A DNA stretch of 34,263 bases, taken from the NCBI GenBank assembly GCA_904420535.1, contig CAJFVQ010000041.1, forward strand, positions 1 to 34,263. Direction: 5' to 3'. The position numbers were made by a program, and so were the translations under genes. The DNA is from Candidatus Cryptoclostridium obscurum (GTDB lineage Bacteria > Bacillota > Dehalobacteriia > UBA7702). The notes beneath the pieces are model-generated. The model made no database searches. It was not told where the DNA came from and worked only from the letters and a program-made list of their open reading frames with translations. Below, one piece after another: positions 1 through 32,619 of the stretch (positions are counted from its first letter, which is position 1; the number at the start of each line of letters is the position of its first letter).

Positions 1-1102
1 CGGAAATTTTAAGATCATCCAAAAGCCCGTTCCGTTTTAAAAATTCAAAATTCACACGAATATCCCTTGGCGCAGAATCCGGTTGGAACATAATAAATCC
101 AATATTGGGTTTTAATCCCAGATGCTTCAAAATTCTCAAAGCCTTTTCGTTTTGGGCCACTGTCGTATGTTTCTTCATTCCATCGAGACAGCGCTGACTG
201 CCGCTTTCCAAGCCGATGAGCAAATCCTCCAATCCCGCCTCCATCAAAGCTGCCACAATATCCTCGTGAATATCATTAACCCGCGCTTCGATACCGAATC
301 GAATGCCAAGAGGCTTCAATTTTGATGCCATTGCCAAAGCGCGACGCTGACCTTTAGCGCCGGGGCCAAAAAAGTTGGGATCCACGAAATAAAAGCGGTA
401 TTTCCCCGTTTTTTCCATGACAGCGTTGATCTCATCAAAAACGTAATCAACACTGTGCCCCCGCCAGCGGCGACCTTCTCCATAATAATCATTGATGTAA
501 CAAAACGTGCAATGATTGTAACAACCGCGGCTGCCTTCTATATTAACTTCTTCGAGATCCAATAACCCGTCGGTGTAATGGGGAAACGGGAGGGAATCCA
601 GCTCATTTACGACAACCAAAGGATTCTGCCTCACGGATCCATCGACATCACGGTAGGCCATGGACGGCGCCTTGTCAACAGAGACACCCCGAGATAGCGC
701 CTGAAAAGCCGTCTCAGGTTCCCCTATGACGATGCCGTCCACTTCGGGAATGGTCATCAGAAGGTCTTTGTAGGCAAATGAGGGATAAAAGCCGCAGACG
801 ACGATAGACGCGCTGCATAACTCTCGTATTTCTTTGAAAAATTGACACAATTCACAATGATTATCCCATTGATATACCATATGTACGGCAATCAACTGCG
901 GCTGAAACAACGCAATATCCTTTTTTATCGTCTGGTAGGACAATTTTCCCAAAAAGCCGTCGGCGAAAAACACCTCATGCTCCCGCTCCAATACTCCCCA
1001 AACAGAAGGCAAAATCAAACAGGAAGAAAGAGGCGTATTTGCAATATCGTTGTAAAAAGCATCGCCAATATTCCGAGGGTGCTCCATTAAAAAGATTTTC
1101 AC
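1..1102 (-). CDS. bzaE: BzaE-like B12-binding radical SAM enzyme, partial (3' end outside window)
   Basis: Probable last enzyme of anaerobic dimethylbenzimidazole synthesis, acting on the 5-methoxy-6-methylbenzimidazole made by BzaD; the role is assigned from the known bzaABCDE pathway and gene order. The visible 367 residues contain an N-terminal cobalamin-binding-like region and a radical SAM CX3CX2C motif at C194, C198 and C201 (GCYNHCTFCY), followed by the SAM-barrel stretch around LIGLESGS. The frame is open from the left edge to a GTG start at 1102-1100, which overlaps the bzaD stop as GTGA, with a GAGGGGG-type ribosome binding site upstream; the next in-frame ATG is four codons later. 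Translational coupling to bzaD is likely. The C-terminus is not visible. It could be another B12-binding radical SAM enzyme, but position and partners make BzaE the best call. Confidence 0.85.
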   Translation of the reverse strand, partial: MKIFLMEHPRNIGDAFYNDIANTPLSSCLILPSVWGVLEREHEVFFADGFLGKLSYQTIKKDIALFQPQLIAVHMVYQWDNHCELCQFFKEIRELCSASIVVCGFYPSFAYKDLLMTIPEVDGIVIGEPETAFQALSRGVSVDKAPSMAYRDVDGSVRQNPLVVVNELDSLPFPHYTDGLLDLEEVNIEGSRGCYNHCTFCYINDYYGEGRRWRGHSVDYVFDEINAVMEKTGKYRFYFVDPNFFGPGAKGQRRALAMASKLKPLGIRFGIEARVNDIHEDIVAALMEAGLEDLLIGLESGSQRCLDGMKKHTTVAQNEKALRILKHLGLKPNIGFIMFQPDSAPRDIRVNFEFLKRNGLLDDLKIS

Positions 1103-2436
1103 GGTGTTTCCCCCTCTCTCAATCCATACCACATAAAAATATTGTTTTTCTGATTTTGAATTTCCAGCTCATAACGAAGATCTTCATAGGGCTGAGGATT
1201 ATAATAAAAAGGGTACAAAAGACTTCTCTCCGCTTCGATCACACCTTCCCTCACGGCAGTACGGGTACTTTCGGTTTCGGGCAAAAGGCGGATATGATTC
1301 AGTACCACATACCCCAAACTCCTGCTTTTTTCGTGAATACGGTAGATCGTATCGATCATACGGCGACTTTCTGCGACGGTTGCCTCATTTTCACCGGGGA
1401 CGTTGACCATAAAATGATATAAAGAACAAACACCAGTATCGGCCAAAAGGCGAGCGGCCCGCAACAATTCCTCCTCAGTCAGGTCTTTGCCCAAGGTTAC
1501 CCGGGCTTTTTCTGACAAACCGTCGGGCGAAAGAGAAAAACAGTTACAGCCGCTTTTCACATACAATTTCACGTTTTTTTCATTCAAGAAATTTTCACGG
1601 AAAAAACCTGTCCACTGGATATCCAAATCACGTCGGAGTACTTCTCGACAAATGGCATCGAGATGTTCCGACGGCATATTAACTACCGGATCATTCAGAT
1701 GAAAGAGACGAATACCATAATCGCGGAAAAGGACTTCTATTTCATCAACAATATCTTTCACCGGACGGCAACGGATCTTTGTGCCTTGAAGCATTGGATA
1801 AGAGCAGTAAGCACATTTCAGAGGGCAGCCCCGGCGGGTTTCCACTCCTATGGCGGGCACATATTGATTGATATCGGCATAGCGATCCGGCGGCAAGATA
1901 CTATAATCAGGAGATACGTATTCCTTTAAATCAAACATTGGCCGGGGATGGTTGATACGGAGTCTGCCGTTTTCGTAATAACAGAGTCCCGGAAGATCAG
2001 AGATCAGGTCAGGAAAGGCGCTAAGGAATTTCGGAAAGGCAATTTCCCCTTCGCCGATTAAACCAAAATCTGCTTTGGATAACGTCATGAGCTCTTTTGC
2101 AAAAAGCGAAAAAGCCGTGCCACCCACAATCAGTTTTGACCGGGGTGACAACGCGCGCACCATAGAAACAACGGTCAGAAACGGCGGCACCAAAGAGACA
2201 TTTTTATTGGCTAGAGGGTCAATATTCCGAAGGGAGATTCCTACGAGATCAAAGTCGTCTCCGGCAAGTGCATTTTTGACGGCGGCGTAACCGTCATCCT
2301 CCCAATTCATATCGACGACAGCAACTTCATGCCTCAAATTTTTGGCAATGGTAGCCAAAATCACAATTCCAATAGGGTATACCCGCTCCTTCGTATGATC
2401 CTCCACCGAAGGAGACTGGATCAACAAAAGTTTCAC
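1099..2436 (-). CDS. bzaD: BzaD-like B12-binding radical SAM C-methyltransferase
   Basis: Predicted to C-methylate 5-methoxybenzimidazole to 5-methoxy-6-methylbenzimidazole in the anaerobic lower-ligand pathway. The 445-residue protein has an N-terminal Rossmann-type cobalamin-binding region (IVGGTAFSLF and GLIGEGE are typical) and a radical SAM core with CX3CX2C at C204, C208 and C211 (CPLKCAYCSY). The start ATG at 2436 overlaps the bzaC stop (ATGA), and its own stop overlaps the GTG of the downstream bzaE, so the three genes are probably translationally coupled. Family members are about 440-480 residues, so this one is full length. BzaD and BzaE are similar in architecture; they are told apart here only by order (bzaC-bzaD-bzaE as in Eubacterium limosum). 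Confidence 0.87.
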   Translation of the reverse strand: MKLLLIQSPSVEDHTKERVYPIGIVILATIAKNLRHEVAVVDMNWEDDGYAAVKNALAGDDFDLVGISLRNIDPLANKNVSLVPPFLTVVSMVRALSPRSKLIVGGTAFSLFAKELMTLSKADFGLIGEGEIAFPKFLSAFPDLISDLPGLCYYENGRLRINHPRPMFDLKEYVSPDYSILPPDRYADINQYVPAIGVETRRGCPLKCAYCSYPMLQGTKIRCRPVKDIVDEIEVLFRDYGIRLFHLNDPVVNMPSEHLDAICREVLRRDLDIQWTGFFRENFLNEKNVKLYVKSGCNCFSLSPDGLSEKARVTLGKDLTEEELLRAARLLADTGVCSLYHFMVNVPGENEATVAESRRMIDTIYRIHEKSRSLGYVVLNHIRLLPETESTRTAVREGVIEAERSLLYPFYYNPQPYEDLRYELEIQNQKNNIFMWYGLREGETP

Positions 2437-3476
2437 AAAGGTTTACCTCCTTTCTTTTCCCAAGGAATCAATTGTTCCTTTTGTTTTGCCGCCACGATCA
2501 GGGCCGTATCCGAAGGCAGAGGCAAAAGCTCTGTATGATACAAACCGTTATCCGCCATGAGTTCATGGATTTCTACAAAGGAAAAAACGCGGCCATTATA
2601 AGTATTCAGGAGCATATTCAAATCCAATGCAGCAGCCTTTGGATCATAATGCCCGCGGAAAAAATCATGGATCAACACGATTCCTCGAGAGGAGAGATGC
2701 TTGGCAACGCGCTGCATCAAGGCAGCATTATCCCTTCGATCAAAGGCATGGATGATGTTAGACAGAAGGATTAAATCAAAGGTCTCACCTTTCAGCGCTC
2801 CCCAAGGTTCCAACACATTCATATCGACAAGGCGGATCCGTTGACACAATGCGATCGGCAATTCTTCTTCGCAAAGTTCCATGACGTCTCTCATATCGAC
2901 CAAAGTGGCATGGGATTTTGGCCAAATCCTCAAAAATTCACAGCTTATCGCGGCAAGGCCGCTACCGACATCGAGAATTCTCGCCTTTTCCATGGCAATG
3001 GGAAACCGCGCCACAACTTCCCGTGCTTTGCAGCGAGCAATATCATTCATGGCAAAAGAGTATTGGCGAAACCGCCTCTTAATAGAGGCGGCATCGTCAT
3101 CTGGAGGAAAATCTGTTCGACACCCCACAGCTAGCCCATGAGAAAGATTTTGCCAGCGACGGCAAAGATCTCTTCGCCAAAGAATGGAATGGCCCTGATA
3201 GAATTCACTTTGAGGAACTAAATATTTTTGAGCCAAAGGCGTGTTTTGAAAGGTTTCCCCGTCAGATCGCAGCAACCCCATGGCTTCCAAAGCCAGCAAA
3301 TAACGATAAGTCGCACTTTCTTCAAAACCTAGATAGCAATGATACTGTAATACGGTTTTTTTATCCTGTCCAAAGGAAAAGAGTTCTTTCTCCACTGCCG
3401 TAAAAAGAATCTCGCCGAACCATGCTCCTGTCGCAATATTCTCTAAAAATTGAAAACCTTCCGATTGCATTTCCAT
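2433..3476 (-). CDS. bzaC: BzaC-like SAM-dependent O-methyltransferase
   Basis: Predicted to O-methylate 5-hydroxybenzimidazole to 5-methoxybenzimidazole. The 347-residue protein has the layout of small-molecule O-methyltransferases: an N-terminal winged-helix/dimerisation region (FGEILFTAVEKELF through the GLLRSDG turn), then a Rossmann methyltransferase domain with motif I ILDVGSGLA, an acidic residue in ATLVDMRDV, and the LILLSNIIHAF stretch. I chose the ATG at 3476 because AAGGAG (3488-3483) lies 6 nt upstream; an upstream GTG at 3506 would overlap cobT but has no ribosome binding site. The gap to cobT is 16 nt and the stop overlaps bzaD. Family and context both support the call. Confidence 0.87.
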   Translation of the reverse strand: MEMQSEGFQFLENIATGAWFGEILFTAVEKELFSFGQDKKTVLQYHCYLGFEESATYRYLLALEAMGLLRSDGETFQNTPLAQKYLVPQSEFYQGHSILWRRDLCRRWQNLSHGLAVGCRTDFPPDDDAASIKRRFRQYSFAMNDIARCKAREVVARFPIAMEKARILDVGSGLAAISCEFLRIWPKSHATLVDMRDVMELCEEELPIALCQRIRLVDMNVLEPWGALKGETFDLILLSNIIHAFDRRDNAALMQRVAKHLSSRGIVLIHDFFRGHYDPKAAALDLNMLLNTYNGRVFSFVEIHELMADNGLYHTELLPLPSDTALIVAAKQKEQLIPWEKKGGKPL

Positions 3477-3492
3477 CACGGTCTCCTTATTC

Positions 3493-4566
3493 TTACAAGT
3501 TTTCACAGGAGGGATTTACGCCGGCTTCTTCAAAGGTCAACATATCGCGGAGCATAATCGAAGCGGCATCCACTAGCGGCATGGCCAAAGCGGCCCCGGT
3601 GCCTTCTCCCAAACGGAGATCCAGTTCCAATAAGGGACGAAGTCCCAAATACTCTAGCATTTTTTTATGAGCCCGTTCATGAGAGACATGGGCAGCGATC
3701 ACATAATCTTTACAGGCCGGCGCCATAGATACCGCTAGCAGCGCTCCGGCAGTGGAGATATAACCGTCCAAAAGCACCGGCATATGGCAGTATGCGGCGC
3801 CAAGAATCAAACCGGCAATCCCGCCGATCTCATACCCTCCAAGTTTCGACAAAATGGCAATGGGATCGTTTTTCCCCGAACGATGGAGCATCAGTGCCTT
3901 ATCAATTACGGCGACTTTATGAGCGATGGCAGCGTCGTCCAGCCCCGTGCCACGACCGGTAAGATCTTTGGCTTTGATCCCGCTTAAGGCAGCAAATACC
4001 GCCGTGCTGGGTGTTGTGTTGCCGATTCCCATATCTCCAGTAGCGATCAAATCTACCCCGCGACTTTTGGCGTCAATGACAAGGTTAATACCGGCTTCCA
4101 GGGAATTTACCGCGTCCTCTCGGGACATCGCCGCAGACTTCGTCATATTTTTTGTACCATAACCGATTTTACGGTTAATGACCTTGCCTTTGCCATAAAG
4201 AAGATCCAATTTTGCATCGACACCCAGATCTACAATGTTCACTTTTGCTCCCGCATTTTTGGCAAAAGCGTTGATCCCCGCACCACCTTGAAGGAAATTC
4301 CCGACCATCTCTACGGTAACCGCCTTGGGAAAACGGCTAACCCCTTCTTCTGCTACGCCGTGGTCTCCTGCCATCACGAAAACTTCCTTTTGAGGAAATT
4401 CCGGCGTCATGGTTTCCGTAATAGCAACGAGCTGTTCCGCCAGAGAGGTCATTACCCCAAGGCTTCCGGCGGGAATTGCCAAAGCCTCAAGGTGTTTCTT
4501 TGCTTTTATGCGCCATTCTTCCCTCGGCGGATCGATTTGATATAAAATTTCACTCAGATTCATCAT
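3493..4566 (-). CDS. cobT: Nicotinate-nucleotide--dimethylbenzimidazole phosphoribosyltransferase CobT
   Basis: CobT transfers phosphoribose from nicotinate mononucleotide to a benzimidazole base, making the alpha-ribazole phosphate that becomes the cobamide nucleotide loop. Recognisable blocks are PAGSLGVM near the N-terminus, VFVMAGDHGVAEEGVSRFP, TGDMGIGNTT, GRGTGLDD, and the C-terminal RLGEGTGAAL, which holds the conserved catalytic glutamate. At 357 residues it is full length. An upstream TTG at 4572 is possible, but ATG at 4566 has AGGA 6 nt upstream and is preferred. It sits between bzaB and bzaC, as in known bza operons, so it is presumably tuned to the benzimidazole made by its neighbours. 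A lone CobT rather than an ArsA/ArsB pair argues for benzimidazolyl rather than phenolyl cobamides. Confidence 0.96.
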   Translation of the reverse strand: MMNLSEILYQIDPPREEWRIKAKKHLEALAIPAGSLGVMTSLAEQLVAITETMTPEFPQKEVFVMAGDHGVAEEGVSRFPKAVTVEMVGNFLQGGAGINAFAKNAGAKVNIVDLGVDAKLDLLYGKGKVINRKIGYGTKNMTKSAAMSREDAVNSLEAGINLVIDAKSRGVDLIATGDMGIGNTTPSTAVFAALSGIKAKDLTGRGTGLDDAAIAHKVAVIDKALMLHRSGKNDPIAILSKLGGYEIGGIAGLILGAAYCHMPVLLDGYISTAGALLAVSMAPACKDYVIAAHVSHERAHKKMLEYLGLRPLLELDLRLGEGTGAALAMPLVDAASIMLRDMLTFEEAGVNPSCENL

Positions 4567-4575
4567 ATCCAATCC

Positions 4576-5850
4576 TCACAGTCCAAAATATTTTGCCGCC
4601 ACATCGGCAGCGCAATCGATACCGCAACCAGGACAAACCTCCCCATGTTCCAAATTGTAGTTATGGAAAACGTCAGGATAGAGCGCTGCTGACTTTTGCG
4701 CTTCCACATCCCGTGCAACTCTGGCACGAGCCATTTTCATTTCTCTTTCCCAGGCAGGGCGTGACCCTCTGGCGACATCGGCAATCTGTGCAGCGATCTT
4801 TGTGGCGCGTACGCCGATACGGACATCTTCCTCTAGAGGAAGCCCCAGATGCTCCGCCGGCGTCAAATAACAAAGGAAGTCAGCGCCACAGGCTCCTGCA
4901 TAAGCGCCGCCAATGGCCCCGGTGATATGGTCATAACCGGGAGCGACGTCCGTAGCCAAAGTTCCCAAAATATAATAAGGTGCATCATTGCAAAGAGCCT
5001 TCTGCAAACGCATCGTGGCATCCACATGATGCAGCGGCACATGGCCGGGACCTTCTACCATCACCTGGACACCTGCTTCCTGGGCCTTTCTAGTCAATTC
5101 TCCTTGGATCACCATCCCCTGGACCTGTGCGGGATCCAAAGAATCATAACCGCAACCGGGACGGATTGCGTCGCCAAGGCTCAATGTGACATCGTGAGCT
5201 TTTAAAATTTCCAACACGCGGTCATAATGTTCAAACAGAGGATTCTCTTTGTCGTTGTGAAGCATCCACCCCGTAAGGAAGGAGCCACCACGGCTCACAA
5301 CCTGAGTAACGCGGCCAGTGCTTTGCATAATTCGGAGCACTTCACGGTTTAGCGCACAATGGACCGCCATGAAGTCCAATCCCGCCGCAGCCTGTTTCTC
5401 AATGGTGTCAAAGATATCCTCTACTTTCATTTCCACCACACTGCCGTATTTCTCAATGGCGTCTACACCGGCCTGATAAATCACGGTGCTCCCCATGGCG
5501 ACTTTGGCGAGTTTCAAACTTTGCGCACGCATTCCGTCAATATCTCTGCCAGTACTCAAATCCATGAAGCTGTCGCACCCCTCCTCCTGGGCGATTTGGA
5601 GTTTACGCGCTTCCATTTCCATATCTTCGCGGTCAGTGGAAGTACCAAACAAAGCGTTGACTTTTACGCTCATACCTTCTCCAATTCCGCAATACCGAAA
5701 CTCCCGTTTTATGTTATTGCGGGGAATCACAATGCGGCCGTTGGCCACCCGCTCTCTGACATATTCCGGGGTTTTACCTTCCATTTCTGCCACAACTTCC
5801 ATTTCTTCCGTTACAATGCCACGTCTGGCTTTTAAAACTTGTGTTGTCAT
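4576..5850 (-). CDS. bzaB: BzaB, ThiC-paralogous radical SAM 5-hydroxybenzimidazole synthase subunit
   Basis: BzaB and BzaA are ThiC paralogues that together convert aminoimidazole ribotide to 5-hydroxybenzimidazole by radical SAM chemistry. The 424-residue protein keeps the ThiC fold signatures: GIGEGMSVKVNA, SFMDLSTG, DFMAVHC, SRGGSF, GDAIRPGC, VMVEGPGHVP, LATDVAPGYDHIT and FLCYLTPAEHLGLP. The C-terminal cluster motif is CPGCGIDC (C406, C409, C413), spaced CX2CX3C, one residue tighter than the CX2CX4C of ThiC. It is shorter than most ThiC proteins because it lacks the long N-terminal domain. The start at 5850 follows GAGGAGG by 7 nt; the gap to bzaA is 12 nt. Assignment as BzaB rather than a single-gene BzaF rests on the presence of two tandem paralogues; which one is A or B is taken from gene order. 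Confidence 0.9.
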   Translation of the reverse strand: MTTQVLKARRGIVTEEMEVVAEMEGKTPEYVRERVANGRIVIPRNNIKREFRYCGIGEGMSVKVNALFGTSTDREDMEMEARKLQIAQEEGCDSFMDLSTGRDIDGMRAQSLKLAKVAMGSTVIYQAGVDAIEKYGSVVEMKVEDIFDTIEKQAAAGLDFMAVHCALNREVLRIMQSTGRVTQVVSRGGSFLTGWMLHNDKENPLFEHYDRVLEILKAHDVTLSLGDAIRPGCGYDSLDPAQVQGMVIQGELTRKAQEAGVQVMVEGPGHVPLHHVDATMRLQKALCNDAPYYILGTLATDVAPGYDHITGAIGGAYAGACGADFLCYLTPAEHLGLPLEEDVRIGVRATKIAAQIADVARGSRPAWEREMKMARARVARDVEAQKSAALYPDVFHNYNLEHGEVCPGCGIDCAADVAAKYFGL

Positions 5851-5862
5851 AACAAATCCTCC

Positions 5863-7155
5863 TCAGCATTGATAAACATGATCCAATGACAAAAATTTAG
5901 ATAAGATTTTCATTGCGCAGTATTTTCCGCACATGGCGCATCCCTTGGAACCGCTGGGGTTTCTTGTTTCCCGCACCTCCCGGGCGCGTTTAGGATCAAT
6001 TGCCAAGGACATTTGCTTGTTCCAATCCAGATCTTTTCGGGCAATGGACATATTGAGATCCCATTGAGCAGCCTTCGCTACACCTTTGGCGATGTCTCCG
6101 GAATGAGCGCCGATACGGGCAGCCACAACGCCTTCATGAACTTGCCTTTGATCAGGTAATCCCAAATGTTCCGCCGCTGTTACATAGCAAAGGAAATCCG
6201 CACCGTAATAGGAGCTTAAAGCACCGCCGATGGCGGCGTTGATATGATCGTATCCCACGGCTACATCGGTGAGAAGCGGCCCGAAAACAAAATAGGGAGC
6301 ATCATGGCACAATGATTTTTCCAATGTCATTGTGGCTTCTACATGATGAATGGGCATATGACCAGGGCCTTTTACCATAATCTGCACACCGGCTTTTTGA
6401 GCGCGCTTAACCAAATCCCCAAGGAGCACCAATTCCTCTACCATGGGACCGTCCAAAGAATCTGCAATACAGCCGGGACGGTTTGCGTCAGCCAGGGCCA
6501 ATGTGATGTCATACTTGTTACAAAGTTCCAGCAATCGGTCATATTGCTCCAATAGGGGATTTTCCTTTTGATTATGGATCATCCAACCCATAAGGTGACT
6601 GCCACCAAAACTCACCATAGGGTCTATGCGATCACTCGCCTTGATATGGTCGATCATCCGTAAGGTAATCCCCGGATGAAAGGCCATAAAGTCCACACCG
6701 TCTTGGGCTTGACGCTCGATGACCGCAAAAAGATCGTCAGCCTCCATCCTCAAAGCGGAACCCCGCCGTTCATGAGCATAAGAAAGGGCTTCATAAAGGG
6801 GAAGCGAGCCCACAGGAACGACAGCGCTTTCCACCACCTGCCTGCGGAAAGCTCCCATGTCGCCGCGAACTGAAAGATCCATCAGAGAATCTGTGCCAGC
6901 TGCCACGGCGGCTTTCAGCTTCTCCATTTCCTTTTCAGGAGTATCTTCAGGAGAATACATACCAATACTGGCACTTACTTTGGTGGTTGCCCCTTTTCCA
7001 ATGGCCACGGGCTTCAGATTTTTGTGACGAGGATTCCAGGGAATTACAATGGAACCGGCTGCCAGGCCTTGAAGGAGTTCTGCTTCAGTCATTTTTTCCC
7101 GTTCCAAAATGGGGGAAAGAAATTCTGAATGTTTCACGCGTTCTGAGATGTTCAT
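5863..7155 (-). CDS. bzaA: BzaA, ThiC-paralogous radical SAM 5-hydroxybenzimidazole synthase subunit
   Basis: First gene of the bza operon and a ThiC paralogue that acts with BzaB on aminoimidazole ribotide. The 430-residue protein shows AIGKGATTKVSASIG, DSLMDLSVRGD, DFMAFHPGIT, SFGGSHLMGWMIHN, ADANRPGC, IMVKGPGHMP, LLTDVAVGYDHINAAIGG and FLCYVTAAEHLGLP. Its C-terminal Fe-S motif is CAMCGKYC (C406, C409, C413), again CX2CX3C. The start at 7155 has AAAAGGAGG 7-8 nt upstream. Expression is probably governed by the cobalamin riboswitch and terminator directly upstream, so the operon should be on when cobalamin is scarce. It could be mistaken for thiC, but it lacks the ThiC N-terminal domain and is followed by bzaB, cobT and bzaC. 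Confidence 0.9.
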   Translation of the reverse strand: MNISERVKHSEFLSPILEREKMTEAELLQGLAAGSIVIPWNPRHKNLKPVAIGKGATTKVSASIGMYSPEDTPEKEMEKLKAAVAAGTDSLMDLSVRGDMGAFRRQVVESAVVPVGSLPLYEALSYAHERRGSALRMEADDLFAVIERQAQDGVDFMAFHPGITLRMIDHIKASDRIDPMVSFGGSHLMGWMIHNQKENPLLEQYDRLLELCNKYDITLALADANRPGCIADSLDGPMVEELVLLGDLVKRAQKAGVQIMVKGPGHMPIHHVEATMTLEKSLCHDAPYFVFGPLLTDVAVGYDHINAAIGGALSSYYGADFLCYVTAAEHLGLPDQRQVHEGVVAARIGAHSGDIAKGVAKAAQWDLNMSIARKDLDWNKQMSLAIDPKRAREVRETRNPSGSKGCAMCGKYCAMKILSKFLSLDHVYQC

Positions 7156-7171
7156 AAATTGCCTCCTTTTA

Positions 7172-7209
7172 CAAAAATAAAAAAGTCATAACCGAAATTG
7201 GTTATGACT
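7172..7209 (-). terminator. Riboswitch-controlled intrinsic terminator of the bza operon
   Basis: On the minus strand a perfect 10-bp stem (AGTCATAACC with GGTTATGACT, 7184-7193 and 7200-7209, 6-nt loop) is followed by a TTTTTTATTTTT tract ending 17 nt before the bzaA start. An upstream segment at 7242-7252 (AGTCAATAACC on the plus strand) is a near copy of one arm with a single bulged base. It can pair with the terminator's other arm to form an antiterminator. This is the usual logic of a transcriptional cobalamin riboswitch. Confidence 0.85.
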
Positions 7210-7317
7210 ATGAGAAAGCAGACCTTGAACGGTGTGCGCAAAGTCAATAACCAAAACAAGGTTACGGCTTTACCTTCACCGATCCCTTACCGCGAAATAG
7301 ACGCGAAATCGCAGTAA

Positions 7318-7490
7318 ACAAATACAGGCAGATATCCTGGCTTGGTTCTTTGCAACAACCCCCTTCCCCGTAAAAACGAGTGGGTGAACAAAATTCTCGG
7401 CTGCTGCTCCCCTACACAGTGGCGGGTCCGCCCGGGATTCACACCCGGTTTCCTTTTTATTCGCTCATGGCGAAACCTGTACTTTCAGTT
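7318..7490 (-). promoter_or_regulatory. Cobalamin riboswitch aptamer
   Basis: Read on the minus strand, the leader has the conserved cobalamin riboswitch order: AAAGTACAGG (5' P1 strand), GGAAACCGGGTGTGAAT, CGGACCCGCCACTGT, and the closing B12 box AAGCCAGGATATCTGCC followed by TGTATTT, which pairs with P1. It begins about 10 nt after the predicted transcription start and ends about 110 nt before the terminator at 7172-7209. Cobalamin binding is expected to favour that terminator and shut off bzaABcobTCDE. The exact aptamer ends are approximate. Confidence 0.93.
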
Positions 7491-7507
7491 ATGAAATTCT
7501 TGGCTCT

Positions 7508-19175: not shown

Positions 19176-20342
19176 TCAGAGATCCGCCGAATCATCGAAG
19201 CCGAATTGGTAAAATTCTTCTTCGCATCCGCAGCCAAAGGCGATGTACATGGTTTCCCGTTCCATATCAAAGATGATGGAAGCCAATGTCTTCCAACGGG
19301 TATTGACAAAATTGGGATGGGAACAAATGGAAAAGGGAGCGTACTCGTGATCCGATAAAAAACGTTTCCCCATTTCCGCATTGATGGCGCCTTTGTGTTC
19401 TTCCAGCAATTGACAGATCCTGTCATATCTGAGATAGGACCATTCCAAAATCCCGTCATTTCCTTCCAAAACATGGCGGTAGCAATCTTCCTCCATGGCC
19501 CGAACCGAGAAGGGTTTTCGGTAAACCAGAGGATTTTTCTTGTCACATCCGTCCATTTTTTCTTCAGTCAAGATATTGTTGGCGTGGCAGAGGTTGGTTT
19601 TACTTTTTCTAACGAAAATTCCGCCGGGATAACATTCCACCGAGGCGGCGCCTTCCGTGCGATGGGTGATCAAATAATGATTGGGAATGGTGTGGGGTAC
19701 TTGTTTCAGAAAGGCCACGGCGTCGTCGAGATCATCATAAAACAGCAGTTCCCGAATGATGCAGTTCGTCGGCACCCCAAGACCGTCGGCAGCCCGTTCC
19801 CCATTGTCGATATACTGCCACAACACGGAAAGCCCCGCGTTGTTCATACCCATATAAGCAGCGATGCCGGGGTGGGTGTACACAAGGGCTGAGGGGCCTT
19901 CGGTATTTTGATGTTTTAATACCACGTCGAGATAGGGGATCCATTCGGAAAAATCTTCATCGTTTGTCTGGCCGCAAATGGCGCCGCCGTCTTCTGTATA
20001 AGTCCCGGCGGCGAAAAATCCCGTACATTTATCGGCAACATTACCTCCGGCCACCGCCAATTCATAGGCCGAAGTCAGGGACAATACCTCTTCAAAGGCG
20101 AGTCCCGCACCGTCGGCAAGACCCCGCAATTCCTCATAGGTATGAGGCGTATACTGCCGTACCAGGGGGATGTAGCTTTTGCAGGCATTGATCCAATGAG
20201 AAAAATCATAGCCGCTGTTCTCCTTGTAATGGCGGATCTGGTTACAGAGATTGACCTTTACGGAATAGCCCAGGGCTTCGCCGGCTTGGCGCCCTCTTTC
20301 ATAATCATTGCCGCGAATTGTGACACATCGTTTTGTATTCAT
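19176..20342 (-). CDS. C45-family Ntn hydrolase (acyl-CoA:6-APA acyltransferase-like)
   Basis: A 388-residue protein of the peptidase C45 / isopenicillin N acyltransferase-like Ntn-hydrolase family. The pattern RGNDYERGRQAGEALG near the N-terminus, ELRGLADGAGL, and DKCTGFFAAGTYTEDGGAICGQTNDED is characteristic; C106 (in DKCTGFF) is the expected autocatalytic cleavage site and N-terminal nucleophile. Substrates in bacteria are mostly unknown acylated amines or amides. No signal peptide is seen, so it should be cytoplasmic. AAGGAGGAA is about 7 nt before the ATG. The upstream region is the unusual CGTCG array (20387-20823), so its regulation may be special. Confidence 0.88.
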   Translation of the reverse strand: MNTKRCVTIRGNDYERGRQAGEALGYSVKVNLCNQIRHYKENSGYDFSHWINACKSYIPLVRQYTPHTYEELRGLADGAGLAFEEVLSLTSAYELAVAGGNVADKCTGFFAAGTYTEDGGAICGQTNDEDFSEWIPYLDVVLKHQNTEGPSALVYTHPGIAAYMGMNNAGLSVLWQYIDNGERAADGLGVPTNCIIRELLFYDDLDDAVAFLKQVPHTIPNHYLITHRTEGAASVECYPGGIFVRKSKTNLCHANNILTEEKMDGCDKKNPLVYRKPFSVRAMEEDCYRHVLEGNDGILEWSYLRYDRICQLLEEHKGAINAEMGKRFLSDHEYAPFSICSHPNFVNTRWKTLASIIFDMERETMYIAFGCGCEEEFYQFGFDDSADL

Positions 20343-20386
20343 CAGCGATTCCTCCTTATAATGATAATTACCCCGGCAGCTTCAGC

Positions 20387-20823
20387 CGTCGGTTTTTTTC
20401 ATGTTTTGTCGCTTTCTGTCAGTTTTTTATTATGTTTCGTCGAATATTCACGTTGAATGTCCAGAACCATTGCTATCTCGTCGTTTTTCGTAAAAACCCA
20501 CTATGATTCCGTCGCAAACCGTTGATTTCCGTCGAATCATTTTATTTTACAAACCAATTCCGTCGTTTTCTGCCGCAGTCTGTTTTGTAACGTCGATATG
20601 ATGTTATTCTATGTTATTTTTCGACGAATTTTGTCGTAGTTCCATTTTGTTTCGTCGTATTCCTGTCTGCTTTTGACGCATATCGACGTATGAATGTAGT
20701 ATTGCGTTGTTTTTCATCGAATTAACGCTATATTCCGTCGTGATATGACGAAACACGTCGATAAACGTCTAATTTATAAAGGATGGACGCGGAAACTACA
20801 ACAAAAATCGTCGACATCCGTCG
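20387..20823. repeat. Helically phased CGTCG array
   Basis: A noncoding stretch of 437 bp contains 14 exact CGTCG or CGACG pentamers, starting at 20387, 20438, 20479, 20510, 20530, 20561, 20591, 20622(rev), 20653, 20684(rev), 20736, 20756, 20809 and 20819. Intervals are 51, 41, 31, 20, 31, 30, 31, 31, 31, 52, 20, 53 and 10 bp, all close to multiples of 10.3. One-base variants (TGTCG at 20407 and 20632, TGACG at 20674 and 20746, CATCG at 20715, CGTTG at 20520 and 20705, CGTCT at 20766) fall on the same lattice. The usual context is TTYCGTCG. Spacers between motifs do not repeat. It is not a CRISPR or an integer-length tandem repeat. Function is unknown; a cooperative DNA-binding array or phased curved DNA are possibilities. 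Confidence 0.85.
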
Positions 20824-20843
20824 ATTGTCTTCCATATACGGAA

Positions 20844-20875
20844 AATGACTTGTTCCACCCATGAAACAAGTCATT
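20844..20875 (-). terminator. Terminator of the XRE regulator gene
   Basis: AATGACTTGTT pairs with AACAAGTCATT (11 bp, 10-nt loop) starting 2 bp beyond the XRE stop codon on the minus strand, followed by a short TTT. Confidence 0.7.
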
Positions 20876-20877
20876 AT

Positions 20878-21195
20878 TTACGGCGATTTCTTTTTTAAAG
20901 CATTGACAAGGGCAGCCACGTGGCCAAAAGTTTCCGCGTCCAAGGATTTCAAATCCTCGATGATATCGTTGAGTTCCCGGGGAGCGGCGTTGCCTTCATC
21001 GAAAAATTCCCGAGGCGTAATACCAAAATAGTCGCAAATACAAAACAGCATTTCCAGAGAAGGCAACGCTTTCTTGTTTTCGATATGATTAATATAACTG
21101 CTGTTTTGTCCCAAAGAGAGAGACATCTCTCTGGCAGAGACATCTTTCTTCATACGAAGTTGAGTGATTCGTTCCTGTGTGAACGTTTCATACAT
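20878..21195 (-). CDS. XRE family transcriptional regulator
   Basis: A 105-residue protein with an N-terminal helix-turn-helix of the XRE/Cro type: RITQLRMKKDVSAREMSLSLGQNSSYINHIENKKALPSLEMLFCICDYFGITPREFFDE. The C-terminal 35 residues (LNDIIEDLKSLDAETFGHVAALVNALKKK) are probably a dimerisation helix. ATG at 21195 is preferred, 8 nt after GGGAGG; an in-frame GTG at 21204 overlaps that site. A perfect 20-bp palindrome lies 67 bp upstream on a divergent promoter, which makes it the likely operator for this protein and the gene at 21358 the likely target. Confidence 0.9.
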   Translation of the reverse strand: MYETFTQERITQLRMKKDVSAREMSLSLGQNSSYINHIENKKALPSLEMLFCICDYFGITPREFFDEGNAAPRELNDIIEDLKSLDAETFGHVAALVNALKKKSP

Positions 21196-21261
21196 TAGCG
21201 CCACCTCCCTTTATATGTTATTGTATACCTCATTCAGACAATTCATAACATATTTAAAACC

Positions 21262-21281
21262 TCATATGTCTTGACATATGA
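21262..21281. promoter_or_regulatory. Perfect palindromic operator between XRE gene and unknown gene
   Basis: TCATATGTC and GACATATGA arms (9 bp each) flank TT. The palindrome covers the -35 hexamer of the plus-strand promoter, so binding would block it. The XRE product encoded next door is the natural candidate. Confidence 0.75.
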
Positions 21282-21299
21282 CTTTTAATATAATATTAT
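21271..21299 (+). promoter_or_regulatory. Promoter of the unknown gene at 21358
   Basis: TTGACA (21271-21276), 17-bp spacer, TATTAT (21294-21299). The -35 lies inside the palindrome at 21262-21281. Confidence 0.7.
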
Positions 21300-21357
21300 G
21301 ATTAAAATAGGATTTTTAATACGTTAAGGGATCGAACTACGGAAAGAGGGATACACC

Positions 21358-22190: not shown

Positions 22191-25100
22191 ATGGAACAGA
22201 AAAAAACTTACATTGCCGACCTCCACATCCATTCCAAATATTCCAGAGCAACGTCCCGGGAGTGCGACCCCTCGCACCTGGACCTCTGGGCCCGTTATAA
22301 AGGCGTGGACCTGGTAGGCACCGGCGATTTTACCCACGCAAAATGGCGAGAGGAATTAAAAGAAACTTTGGTCCCCGAGGAAGAAGGCTTTTATACCTTG
22401 AAAGAGGAATGCCGCCTTCCCGCAACCGTGGGTGGAGAGGAACGAAGACCGCGATTTGTGGTTACCGGGGAGATCAGCTCTATTTATAAGAAAAACGGCA
22501 AAACGAGAAAGGTTCACAATGTTATCCTCCTACCCAGTTTGGAGGAGGGGGACAAGCTCGCCCATCGTTTGGAAGCCATCGGCAACCTCCATTCCGACGG
22601 ACGCCCCATTCTGGGCCTGGATTGCCGAGATCTGCTGGAAATCACCTTGGAGTCCTGCCCCGAGGCTGTGTTTATCCCCGCCCATATTTGGACGCCGCAT
22701 TTTTCCCTTTTCGGCGCTTTTTCAGGCTTTGACACCATTGAAGAGTGTTTTGAGGATTTAACGCCCTACATCCACGCTTTGGAAACGGGACTTTCCTCGG
22801 ACCCGCCGATGAACCGTCGCGTTTCCGCCCTGGACCGCTTCACCCTGGTATCGAATTCCGACGCCCACTCCCCCATGAAGCTGGCGAGAGAGGCAAACCT
22901 GATGCAAGGGGTGGACTCTTACCATGCCATGGCCAGAGCTCTCCAAGGGGGAGAGGATTTCCTGGGCACTCTGGAATTTTTTCCCGAAGAAGGGAAATAT
23001 CACTGGGACGGCCACCGCAACTGCGGACGGCGGCTTTCTCCCAAAGAAACCATGGCTTTGGGAGGGATCTGCCCCACCTGTGGCAAGAAGATCACCATCG
23101 GCGTGGAACACCGCGTAGAAGCCTTAGCCGATCGCGAAACTCCGATCTCCTTGAACAAACCCTTTGAACAGCTGGTTCCCCTGACGGAGATCATTGCCGA
23201 TACCATGGAGGTTTCCGCCTCCTCCAAAAAAGTGCAACAGCAGTATTTTCAGATGCTGGAAATCCTCGGCTCCGAACTGGAAATTTTGCGGAAGATTCCC
23301 ATTGCTACCATTGAAGAAGCGGCAGGGCCCATCATTGCCAGAGGCGTGGAAAAACTGCGTGAAGGCGACGTGAAACTGACCCCGGGATATGACGGGGAAT
23401 ACGGAACGATCTCCCTGTTTACTCGGGGAGAACTGGAAGAGCTTCGGGGGGAACAGAGCCTGTTTCTGTGGGAACCTTTGGATCCGCCCGCGCTGACCGG
23501 AACCCCCGCGACTTCTCCAGCAGCGCCGAAAGGTTCAAATGAAAAACAAAAGGCAAAGCCCCGTCCGGAAGCATTCAACCGCCGTCAGATCGAAGCCGTC
23601 ACCGCCGCAGCGCCTACCGTTGCGGTGATCGCAGGGCCCGGCACCGGCAAAACAAAAACATTGGTGGAACGCATCGCTTATTTGCTGGAACAGCGGGGTG
23701 TCTCTCCCAAAGAAATCACCGCTGTGACCTTTACCAACCGCGCCGCCGCAGAAATGCGAGAACGGCTGGCCAAACGACTGGGCGGGAAAAAATATCTTCA
23801 AGGAATGGCCATTGGCACCTTTCATCGCATTTGTCTCGATTTATTGCCGAAAAAGCCCTTGATCCACGGTGGAGAACGCAGGGATCTCTTAAAAGAAATC
23901 GGCGCGGAGCTGGGGATTGAAGCATCCCCTCGCCAGCTGGCGGATGCCCTTTCCCGCCACAAAAACGGAATGGAGCTTTCCGAAACAATGGCTTGGCTGC
24001 CCCAATTATGGGAACGGTATCAGCAACGCCTTGAAGACATGGGATGCCGCGATTTGGACGATCTGCTTTTAGAGGGCTTGGCCATGGACATTCGCGGTTT
24101 GTCCCAATTCCGTCATTTGCTGGTGGATGAATTTCAAGATATCAACGAGATCCAGCACAGGCTGGTGCAGCACTGGTCCGAAAGCGGGGAGCTTTTCGTC
24201 ATCGGCGATCCGGATCAGTCCATCTATGGCTTTCGCGGCGCCGACGACCAATGCTTCAATCGTCTGGTCCAAAACCGCCCCGAAACAAAAACTATCTCTT
24301 TGGAGGAAAATTACCGCTCCACCCCGGAAATTCTGCAATGTGCCGTAGAAGTCATTACGAAAAACGGCGGCAAGCCACGGTCTCTCAGAGCGATGGCTCC
24401 TTCCGGAGAGGCCGTTTCTGTGGTAAAGTGCCCCACGCCTTTCCGCGAAGCTGTATGGCTGGCCAAAGAGATTAACGCCCTCTGTGGCGGCGTGGATATG
24501 CTCTCCGCCGATCGCCATCACAAAAATGTAAAGAAATCCCGCTCCTTAGGGGACATCGCCGTGCTCTGCCGTACCAGAAAGCAGCTGAAACTGATCGAGG
24601 AATGTCTTACCCATGAGGGGATCCCCGCTGTGATCACGGCGCGGGAAGACTATCTGGATCACGATGACGTCCGCGGCTGCCTGGGATTTTTCCGCTCTCT
24701 CATCCATCCCAAAGATATTCCTTCTCTTGCCATTGCTTTGAAACTGGTATTTCAATGCCCTGACGACGAAATCAAAACCCTTTGCGGTGTAGCCGCGAAG
24801 CAGACCCACTGGGATATCACTGCCTTGCAAGAAGCGCTGGGGCACTTTGGCAAAGCCATGGCTTGGATAAAAATGCTAGAGACCTTTTTACCCCAATGGG
24901 AAAAGCGCGCTCCTTCGGAACTAATCGAAGCATGGGCGGAACAATGGGGAACCGGCGACGCCCTGGAAAAACTCATCCATGCCGCCCTCTTCCACGATAC
25001 CATGGAGGGATTTCTCGCTGCCCTGGATCTCGGCGAAGAACAAGACATTCGCCGCGCCACCGGAAGGGACTACACCACTGACGCCGTGCAGCTTATGACG

Positions 25101-25367
25101 TTACACGGCGCCAAAGGGCTGGAATTTCCCGTGGTATTTCTGGCAGGGGTCAACCGTGGCACCTTACCTTTGGAGCGAGCCGGCGAGACCCCGAACACCA
25201 AAGAGGAACGCCGTCTGTTTTTTGTGGGAATTACAAGGGCAAAAGAATCACTGACCCTCACCATAGGGGAAGGATCATCGCCTTTTCTGGCAGAACTCCC
25301 CTCCTCCATCCGCGTGGAAACAATCAAAGTTCCTACTCCGAAGGAAGAAGAACCCACATTGTTTTAA
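22191..25367 (+). CDS. Endonuclease Q-like PHP nuclease fused to UvrD/Rep helicase
   Basis: A 1058-residue fusion protein. Residues 1 to about 427 are a PHP-family nuclease of the endonuclease Q/YqxK type: metal-binding DLHIHS (10-15), [33 protein letters not shown], and a zinc-site region with C278, C294 and C297 ([10 protein letters not shown]). Endonuclease Q nicks DNA 5' of deaminated bases. A proline/alanine-rich linker (about 428-462) leads to a UvrD/Rep superfamily 1A helicase: Walker A GPGTGKT (482-488), [19 protein letters not shown] (646-650), [20 protein letters not shown], and [16 protein letters not shown] (about 971-986). The combined protein could nick at damage and unwind the strand for resynthesis. 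ATG at 22191 follows AAAGGAGA. It is monocistronic with a terminator after it. Confidence 0.92.
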
Positions 25368-31134: not shown

Positions 31135-32619
31135 ATGAGAAACACTTTACAAGCCGGCCTCACACCCCAACGGGGAATGGGCCTGACCCTCTTCAGCGAG
31201 GATGACCTTTACGCAATCCACTGCGCAACCCTGGAAGTATTATACACCATAGGCGTCAGAGTTCCCGGAGAGGAGGAGCGCCAAATATTCGCCGGCGGCG
31301 GCGCCACGGTGGACAACGACAGCAAAATTGTTAAAATTCCTGCCTATATGGTAGAAGATGCTATTAAAAACGCGCCTTCCACTTTATTGCTGGCAGGGCG
31401 TGTTCCTGAAAATGACTACGTCATTCACAACAAAACCGTCGCCTTTACCAATTTCGGCGAAGGGGTAAAAGTAGTAAATCCCCATACCAGAAAAGCAGAA
31501 CTTTCCACAAAGAAGCATTTGGCCGACGCTACCCGTATCTGCGACGCTTTGGAAAACATCACCGTTTATGAACGGGCTCTGGGAGCCGACGACGTTCCCG
31601 TAGAAGTACAGAGTATTCACAATGCCGAAGCCATCTTCAACAACACCACCAAACACTGCTTTATCGGCGCTAACTGCGGTTACAATGCCCGTCGCATCAT
31701 TGAAATGGCCCAAGCCATCGTCGGCGGAGAAAAAGAGCTGCGGCAACGTCCCATTTATACGCCCCTTTGCTGTCCCAACAGCCCGTTGACCCTAAACCCC
31801 GACACTTCCGAGGTCATCATGGAAGCAGCACGGGCAGGCATTCCTGTCAACGTCCTTTCCATGGCTTTGGCCGGTGGAACATCTCCGGTAACTTTGGCAG
31901 GGACACTGGTCTGTCACAATGCCGAAGTACTGTCGGGTCTTGTCCTCTGCCAGCTGGTTCATCAGGGAAATCCTTTCATTTACGGAAGTTCTACTACGAT
32001 GATGGACATGCGTTTCACCACCGCCGCCGTAGGCGCTTCGGAACTGGGAATGCTCAACGCCGGTGTGGCGCAACTGGCGCAATTCTATAAACTGCCCAGC
32101 TTTGTAGCGGGCGGTTAGGTTGACAGCAAGTTAATCGACGCGCAAGCAGCCCACGAAACCACCCTTTCCGCCACATTGACGGCATTGGCAGGAGCCAATA
32201 TCATCTACGGTTTGGGAATGTTGGAAATGGGCATGACCTTTGATTATGCAAAATTGGTTATGGACAATGAATTTGCCTACATGATCAAACATGTCGTCAA
32301 AGGTATTGATGTCGATGACGCAACTTTAGCAGTGGACGTCATCCGTCAGGTAGGCCCCGGCGGTGAATTCGTCAGCCACGAACACACTTATCAACATTTC
32401 AAAGAAAGCCAAAGCCGCAGTGTACTCATTGATCGCCGCATGCCCGAAGACTGGGTTGCGCTGGGATCTGTGGATATGCTGACAAAAGCCAACGATGTGG
32501 CCATCGACCTTTACGACCACTACAAACCCATCCCTTTAAGCTGCGACGTGCAGAAAAAACTTCGGGAAATCGTCAACCAGGCAGAAAAGCATTACAATGT
32601 CAGATTAAGTGTAGAGTAG
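31135..32619 (+). CDS. mttB: Trimethylamine:corrinoid methyltransferase MttB (in-frame amber = pyrrolysine)
   Basis: MttB transfers a methyl group from trimethylamine to the corrinoid protein MttC. The frame is 494 residues with a single internal TAG at codon 328 (32116-32118), in the context LPSFVAGG-TAG-VDSK. This is where MttB proteins carry pyrrolysine, and the sequence on both sides continues as MttB: FSEDDLYAIHCATLEVLYTIGV, FGEGVKVVNP, GIPVNVLSMALAGGTSPVTLAGTLVCHNAEVLSGLVL, YGSSTTMMDM before it, and LAGANIIYGLGMLEMGMTF, LIDRRMPEDWVALGS after it. Length and pyrrolysine position resemble archaeal MttB. The terminal stop at 32617-32619 is also TAG. AAGGAGGATC precedes the ATG. The pyrrolysine machinery (pylTSBCD) and mttC are not in the window. 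Confidence 0.93.
32116..32118 (+). other. In-frame amber codon, predicted pyrrolysine
   Basis: TAG at codon 328 of mttB. Flanking residues match MttB homologues without a shift of frame, so this is decoding rather than a frameshift or pseudogene. Requires pyrrolysyl-tRNA elsewhere in the genome. Confidence 0.9.

Follow-up and report, generated by a model that had tools for sequence, protein, structure and literature searches.

Why should a short non-coding region carry the same pentamer again and again, with the copies almost always a whole number of helical turns apart? This question is raised by positions 20387-20823 of a 34,263-bp stretch of DNA from Candidatus Cryptoclostridium obscurum (hereafter the window), which is one entire contig (CAJFVQ010000041.1; C41) of a 2.1-Mb genome that is 99% complete. 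The region is a plus-strand array of CGTCG motifs, and it lies immediately upstream of a gene for a C45 family autoproteolytic acyltransferase/hydrolase of 388 amino acids (19176-20342, minus strand; hereafter the C45 gene).

A helically phased array of exact pentamers

The array holds 14 exact CGWCG pentamers (W = A or T) in 437 bp of non-coding DNA, 12 of them CGTCG and two CGACG, so that 12/14 sites share one orientation; their consensus is TYCGTCGAW. The sites start at 20387, 20438, 20479, 20510, 20530, 20561, 20591, 20622 (minus), 20653, 20684 (minus), 20736, 20756, 20809 and 20819, and consecutive starts are separated by 51, 41, 31, 20, 31, 30, 31, 31, 31, 52, 20, 53 and 10 bp. All 14 pentamers and 13 intervals were found exactly where a preliminary description of this DNA had placed them. 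Three turns is the commonest step, with 30-31 bp in six of the 13 intervals; two or three turns account for eight of the 13, and the overall span is 1-5 turns (10-53 bp). When periods were scanned, the best was 10.28 bp with a power of 12.2 (possible 14), while the top power among 5000 random placements was 10.3 and none of them was as good as the array. A straight-line fit gave 10.285 ± 0.014 bp per turn with a root-mean-square residual of 0.6 bp across 42 turns, and the coherence vanished if 10.5 bp per turn was assumed. Furthermore, CG dinucleotides by themselves reached a power of 15.3 at 10.3 bp, compared to a shuffle maximum of 8.9.

The number of pentamers was also compared with chance expectation. 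The preliminary description had put this expectation at under one, which is correct for base composition alone (about 0.35) and too low for dinucleotide-preserving shuffles that keep the CG excess (n = 2000), where the mean was 3.3 and the maximum 10; the excess is still real. Neither the count nor the periodicity of about 10 bp was thus matched in the comparison with shuffles and random placements (maximum 10 in 2000; 0/5000). For a background of 5-mer phasing, we used a 343-kb sample of the genome cut into 450-bp segments, together with genome-wide pattern searches. Phasing power was at most 6.7 in every other segment of the sample and 11.4 at the array, and the genome-wide pattern searches revealed no second array, leaving this one single in the genome. 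These results collectively confirm that the phased array is real and very unlikely to have arisen by chance.

Weak sites, repeat structure and curvature

Near-matches at the same phase had also been described between the exact sites. When the 14 exact sites were held fixed and only the intervening DNA was shuffled (n = 5000), sites of at least 4/5 outside the exact ones numbered 11 against 2.7 expected (2/5000 shuffles), and their in-phase sum was 7.9 compared to -0.1 ± 1.1 in shuffles (0/5000), which bears the description out. One-mismatch sites on the lattice run from 20407 to 20770 and include TGTCG at 20407 and 20632, CGTTG at 20520 and 20705, TGACG at 20674 and 20746, CATCG at 20715 and CGTCT at 20766. 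A/T triplets lie in antiphase to the lattice (5/5000 shuffles). With the lattice laid out by turns, 22 of its 43 cells carry a site of at least 4/5, while the cells flanking the array on both sides carry none; the edges of the array are sharp, and they coincide with the intergenic limits, where lattice cells adjoin genes.

The strongest lags in sequence autocorrelation are 31 and 10 bp, and there are weak longer matches between some copies, both of which favor a decayed tandem repeat with a 31- or 10-bp unit of which the motif is the sole survivor. However, identity at lag 31 outside the lattice motif is 0.40 against 0.377 expected, i.e. near background, and Tandem Repeats Finder returned nothing on the array at score 30. 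Whole turns are kept, from one to five per interval, while the intervening bases are not, and no recognizable full-length unit was found in relatives, making decay of a repeat a very improbable origin. The earlier statement that the sequence between motifs is not repeated was thus upheld. A tandem repeat or a clustered regularly interspaced short palindromic repeat (CRISPR) locus was rejected on the same grounds, as the intervals vary and no unit of constant spacing was found. Because there is no underlying repeat, the pattern points to selection acting on the sites and not to duplication. The simplest reading of the sequence is selection for a short motif and for helical phase, not for base spacing, which supports the original proposal of a short motif selected on one helical face upstream of the C45 gene.

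We considered whether the DNA itself, intrinsically curved or easily wrapped through A/T runs that recur in phase and are separated by GC, would suffice with no dedicated protein, e.g. via HU, gyrase or supercoiling. The alternation of SS and WW steps has a period of 10.3 bp, and the lattice period of 10.28 bp is shorter than that of relaxed DNA (10.5). The predicted curvature, which the preliminary description had suggested, depends on the model: with De Santis wedge angles it is the highest of the window (z = 3.0 to 6.4, depending on the length over which it is computed), but with Bolshoy angles it is ordinary (z below 1). Furthermore, neither 14 copies of one exact pentamer nor their 12:2 bias in orientation is required for curvature. 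Curvature alone cannot explain an exact, oriented pentamer, and we regard an array without a dedicated protein as unlikely.

Neighboring genes and relatives of the locus

The lower edge of the array is 45 bp ahead of the C45 start codon, and the C45 gene has a good ribosome-binding site, AAGGAGG, at about 20350-20356. On the other side stands a gene for an XRE/HTH_3 regulator of 108 amino acids (20878-21204, minus strand), with the array downstream of it. Immediately 3′ of the XRE stop codon is a minus-strand hairpin with 14-nt arms that are 93% complementary (20844-20875), which is likely the XRE terminator and would insulate the array. The array occupies the gap from this terminator to the start of the C45 gene; any private C45 promoter must therefore lie within or beside it. 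A search for the sigma-54 consensus gave nothing beyond chance and no match inside the array. No open reading frame (ORF) of more than 60 amino acids is contained wholly in the array, and a 104-amino-acid ORF antisense to the C45 start terminates inside it, at 20456. Transcription of the array as a C45 leader, with CGACG and CGTCG segments pairing in an RNA-level element, has very little probability in our view. The minus-strand RNA does fold better than shuffles (z = -3.7), but the inverted motif copies suffice to explain the pairing, single-stranded RNA is free of a 10.3-bp constraint, and no Rfam family matches the array.

Regulation of the XRE gene by the array had been suggested as well, and this part of the preliminary description found no support: the array is downstream of the gene, behind its terminator, and XRE has a candidate operator of its own. 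Between the XRE gene and a divergent ORF of 134 amino acids, a perfect palindrome, CATATGTCTTGACATATG (21263-21280), overlaps a TTGACA-17-TATTAT promoter match. It is the sole match in the window even when three mismatches are allowed, and it is likely the XRE operator. The XRE promoter region (21205-21357) contains no CGTCG, and the palindrome there differs from the array motif. The operator expected for XRE is thus unlike CGTCG, which makes XRE a poor candidate for the array binder. In addition, no phased array of any 5-mer was found in the flanks of XRE homologues, and viral contigs contained no XRE relatives.

Searches beyond this genome gave no equivalent of the array. In 42 relatives of the same class, the pattern search found no second array, its matches being GC-rich, coding-like stretches or in-frame repeats. 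A strict 31-bp pattern had no equivalent in 398 genomes of the phylum, where the sole match was a 15-bp tandem repeat, and three genomes of the same family showed no synteny at the locus, which they do not share. With three CGTCG patterns, the coherent matches seen in viral contigs (including L091 and L186) were all tandem repeats or GC-rich, coding-like sequence; phage and plasmid records gave chance-level matches or none, and a literature search on CGTCG phased repeats yielded nothing relevant. The phage contig L186 carries, at 3447-3550, a CGTCG-rich 10/21-bp tandem array of 10 sites with a best period of 10.38. It resembles the present array in having CGTCG at helical spacing, but it consists of simple tandem repeats that keep the reading frame of a coding (replication-type) gene, and it has no homology to the array. 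Its 21-bp unit, TCGTCGGGAGTCGTCGGTTGA, is present in five in-frame copies, and the gene adjoins a P-loop helicase-like ORF; these repeats may represent iterons of a replication origin located within a replication gene.

The C45 gene itself is patchily distributed. At E 1e-60, none of the 398 phylum genomes contained a homologue, and the close homologues found were in Dorea (72% identity) and in an Eggerthellaceae metagenome-assembled genome (65% identity). The gene looks horizontally acquired, with the array missing in the Dorea and Eggerthellaceae lineages. Upstream of the Dorea homologue (L007:3785-3925), a long inverted repeat, about TTATAATGGTGTTAGTCAA ... TTGACTAACACCATTATAA (read by eye), stands in the place of the array.

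Other features of the window were also recorded. On the plus strand, 31135-32619 encodes an mttB-type trimethylamine methyltransferase with an in-frame TAG at codon 328 (32116-32118); the ORF also ends in TAG, and an Rfam PYLIS_3 match at 32116-32215 covers the in-frame TAG, indicating a pyrrolysine protein. On the minus strand, 1099-7495 comprises a cobalamin riboswitch (7310-7495) followed by two ThiC paralogues, CobT (DBI_PRT), an O-methyltransferase and a B12-radical SAM protein, which resembles a bza operon for anaerobic synthesis of benzimidazole, the lower ligand of B12. A plus-strand gene at 22191-25367 encodes a 1058-amino-acid protein in which a TIGR00375 domain (residues 9-407) is joined to a UvrD/PcrA-like helicase (residues 461-1025).

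Candidate roles for the array

We favor, at a probability of roughly 0.55, a cooperative protein-binding array on one helical face that controls the C45 gene, for which we infer binding, cooperativity and C45 output from the DNA sequence. A sequence-specific DNA-binding protein would recognize CGTCG through the major groove, with most copies facing the same way, and adjacent molecules would touch on a single face of the helix or else wrap the DNA; under this proposal, such contacts or wrapping would make a site useful only at a whole number of turns from the next. The exact, strong sites would anchor the assembly, often at three-turn intervals, with weak in-phase sites filling the gaps, while half a turn away the A/T-rich minor groove would bend or be gripped. 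By analogy with known assemblies, the same-face spacing, orientation bias, anchors and fillers, and antiphase A/T probably fit a cooperative filament-forming or DNA-wrapping protein. A complex that began at the XRE terminator and stopped 45 bp short of the C45 start codon would most likely repress, or conditionally activate, C45 transcription. Since the array does not extend past the C45 upstream region on either side, its most economical output would be control of this gene.

Several results weigh against control of the C45 gene by such an array. No sigma-70-like promoter match was found on the minus strand at 20343-20843, and no binder has been identified for the array. The array is not present upstream of the Dorea or the Eggerthellaceae homologue, the two examined, and so is no conserved element in the regulation of C45. 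In addition, its 14 or more sites far exceed the needs of ordinary gene regulation.

Known phased systems offer likenesses. The parC sites of type II partition systems, bound by the ribbon-helix-helix protein ParR (PMC9426499, PMC5016525), likewise contain many short direct motifs about one helical turn apart, and a cooperative superhelical assembly with wrapped DNA would require one-face phasing. However, parC repeats are regular (11 bp in R1, 10 bp in pB171, 20 bp in pSK41 and 17 bp in pCW3) and lie upstream of parM (PMC9426499, PMC5016525), whereas the present array is spaced by 1-5 turns, is no tandem repeat and has no parM or parR nearby. BldC forms head-to-tail oligomers on direct repeats of consensus AATTXXXX(C), with four 9-bp repeats in every 36 bp, and the operators described bind two or four subunits (PMC5859096). 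It shares with the array a variable number of same-orientation sites, and the CG/AT antiphase fits its recognition helix, which contacts G/C in the major groove, and its wing, which enters A/T-rich minor groove, but the array repeats TYCGTCGAW over 437 bp at multiples of 10.28 bp and not AATTXXXX(C) at 9 bp. SeqA binds pairs of GATC two to three integral turns apart, and GATC and hemimethylation are its defining features (PMC5145175). The likeness to SeqA is by analogy only: the array has a short motif phased by two to three turns, with 30-31 bp commonest, but the repeated motif is CGTCG and not GATC. Thus, the array may work like parC/ParR, BldC or SeqA arrays, although it matches none of them in defining features, and no known family tested accounts for it.

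These comparisons also bear on a maintenance site, chromosomal or from a former plasmid (a parC/tubC-like centromere, an anchoring or an origin-like array), with the gene for its protein located elsewhere and its adjacency to the C45 gene incidental. The array is unique in the genome, direct orientation predominates, and its length and site number suit a segrosome or sequestration site better than a promoter; ParR arrays with 10- and 11-bp repeats (PMC9426499) and the two to three integral turns needed by SeqA pairs (PMC5145175) are precedents. However, Pfam scans of the 29 main ORFs of the window revealed no parM/parR/tubZR-type gene, and the spacing is irregular, unlike parC repeats. No GC-skew switch was seen, so the locus is not near the origin or terminus; it looks chromosomal. 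The ParM family PF06406 had no match in the genome, but control genomes gave no match either. The plasmid-centromere precedent of the preliminary description thus gained no positive evidence, and we consider a maintenance site improbable, slightly more so than curvature.

Beyond control of the C45 gene by a cooperative one-face array, we tentatively raise, as a less probable possibility, a new type of chromosomal nucleoprotein array, in which a dedicated novel protein would lie along one face of 42 turns, or wrap them, through a phase-locked, irregularly occupied pentamer code. Such an array would be a long-range silencer, a domain boundary or a centromere-like site and not an ordinary operator.

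The phased arrays compared here are short or regular, whereas the present array extends over 42 turns with spacing that is free but for whole turns. With spacing constrained only to whole turns, the sequence itself is direct evidence that helical phase is what selection reads. The array also predicts that a specific protein binds it, supplies a measured helical repeat of 10.28 bp for DNA in the complex, and could serve as a clean test bed for models of cooperative filaments or DNA wrapping.
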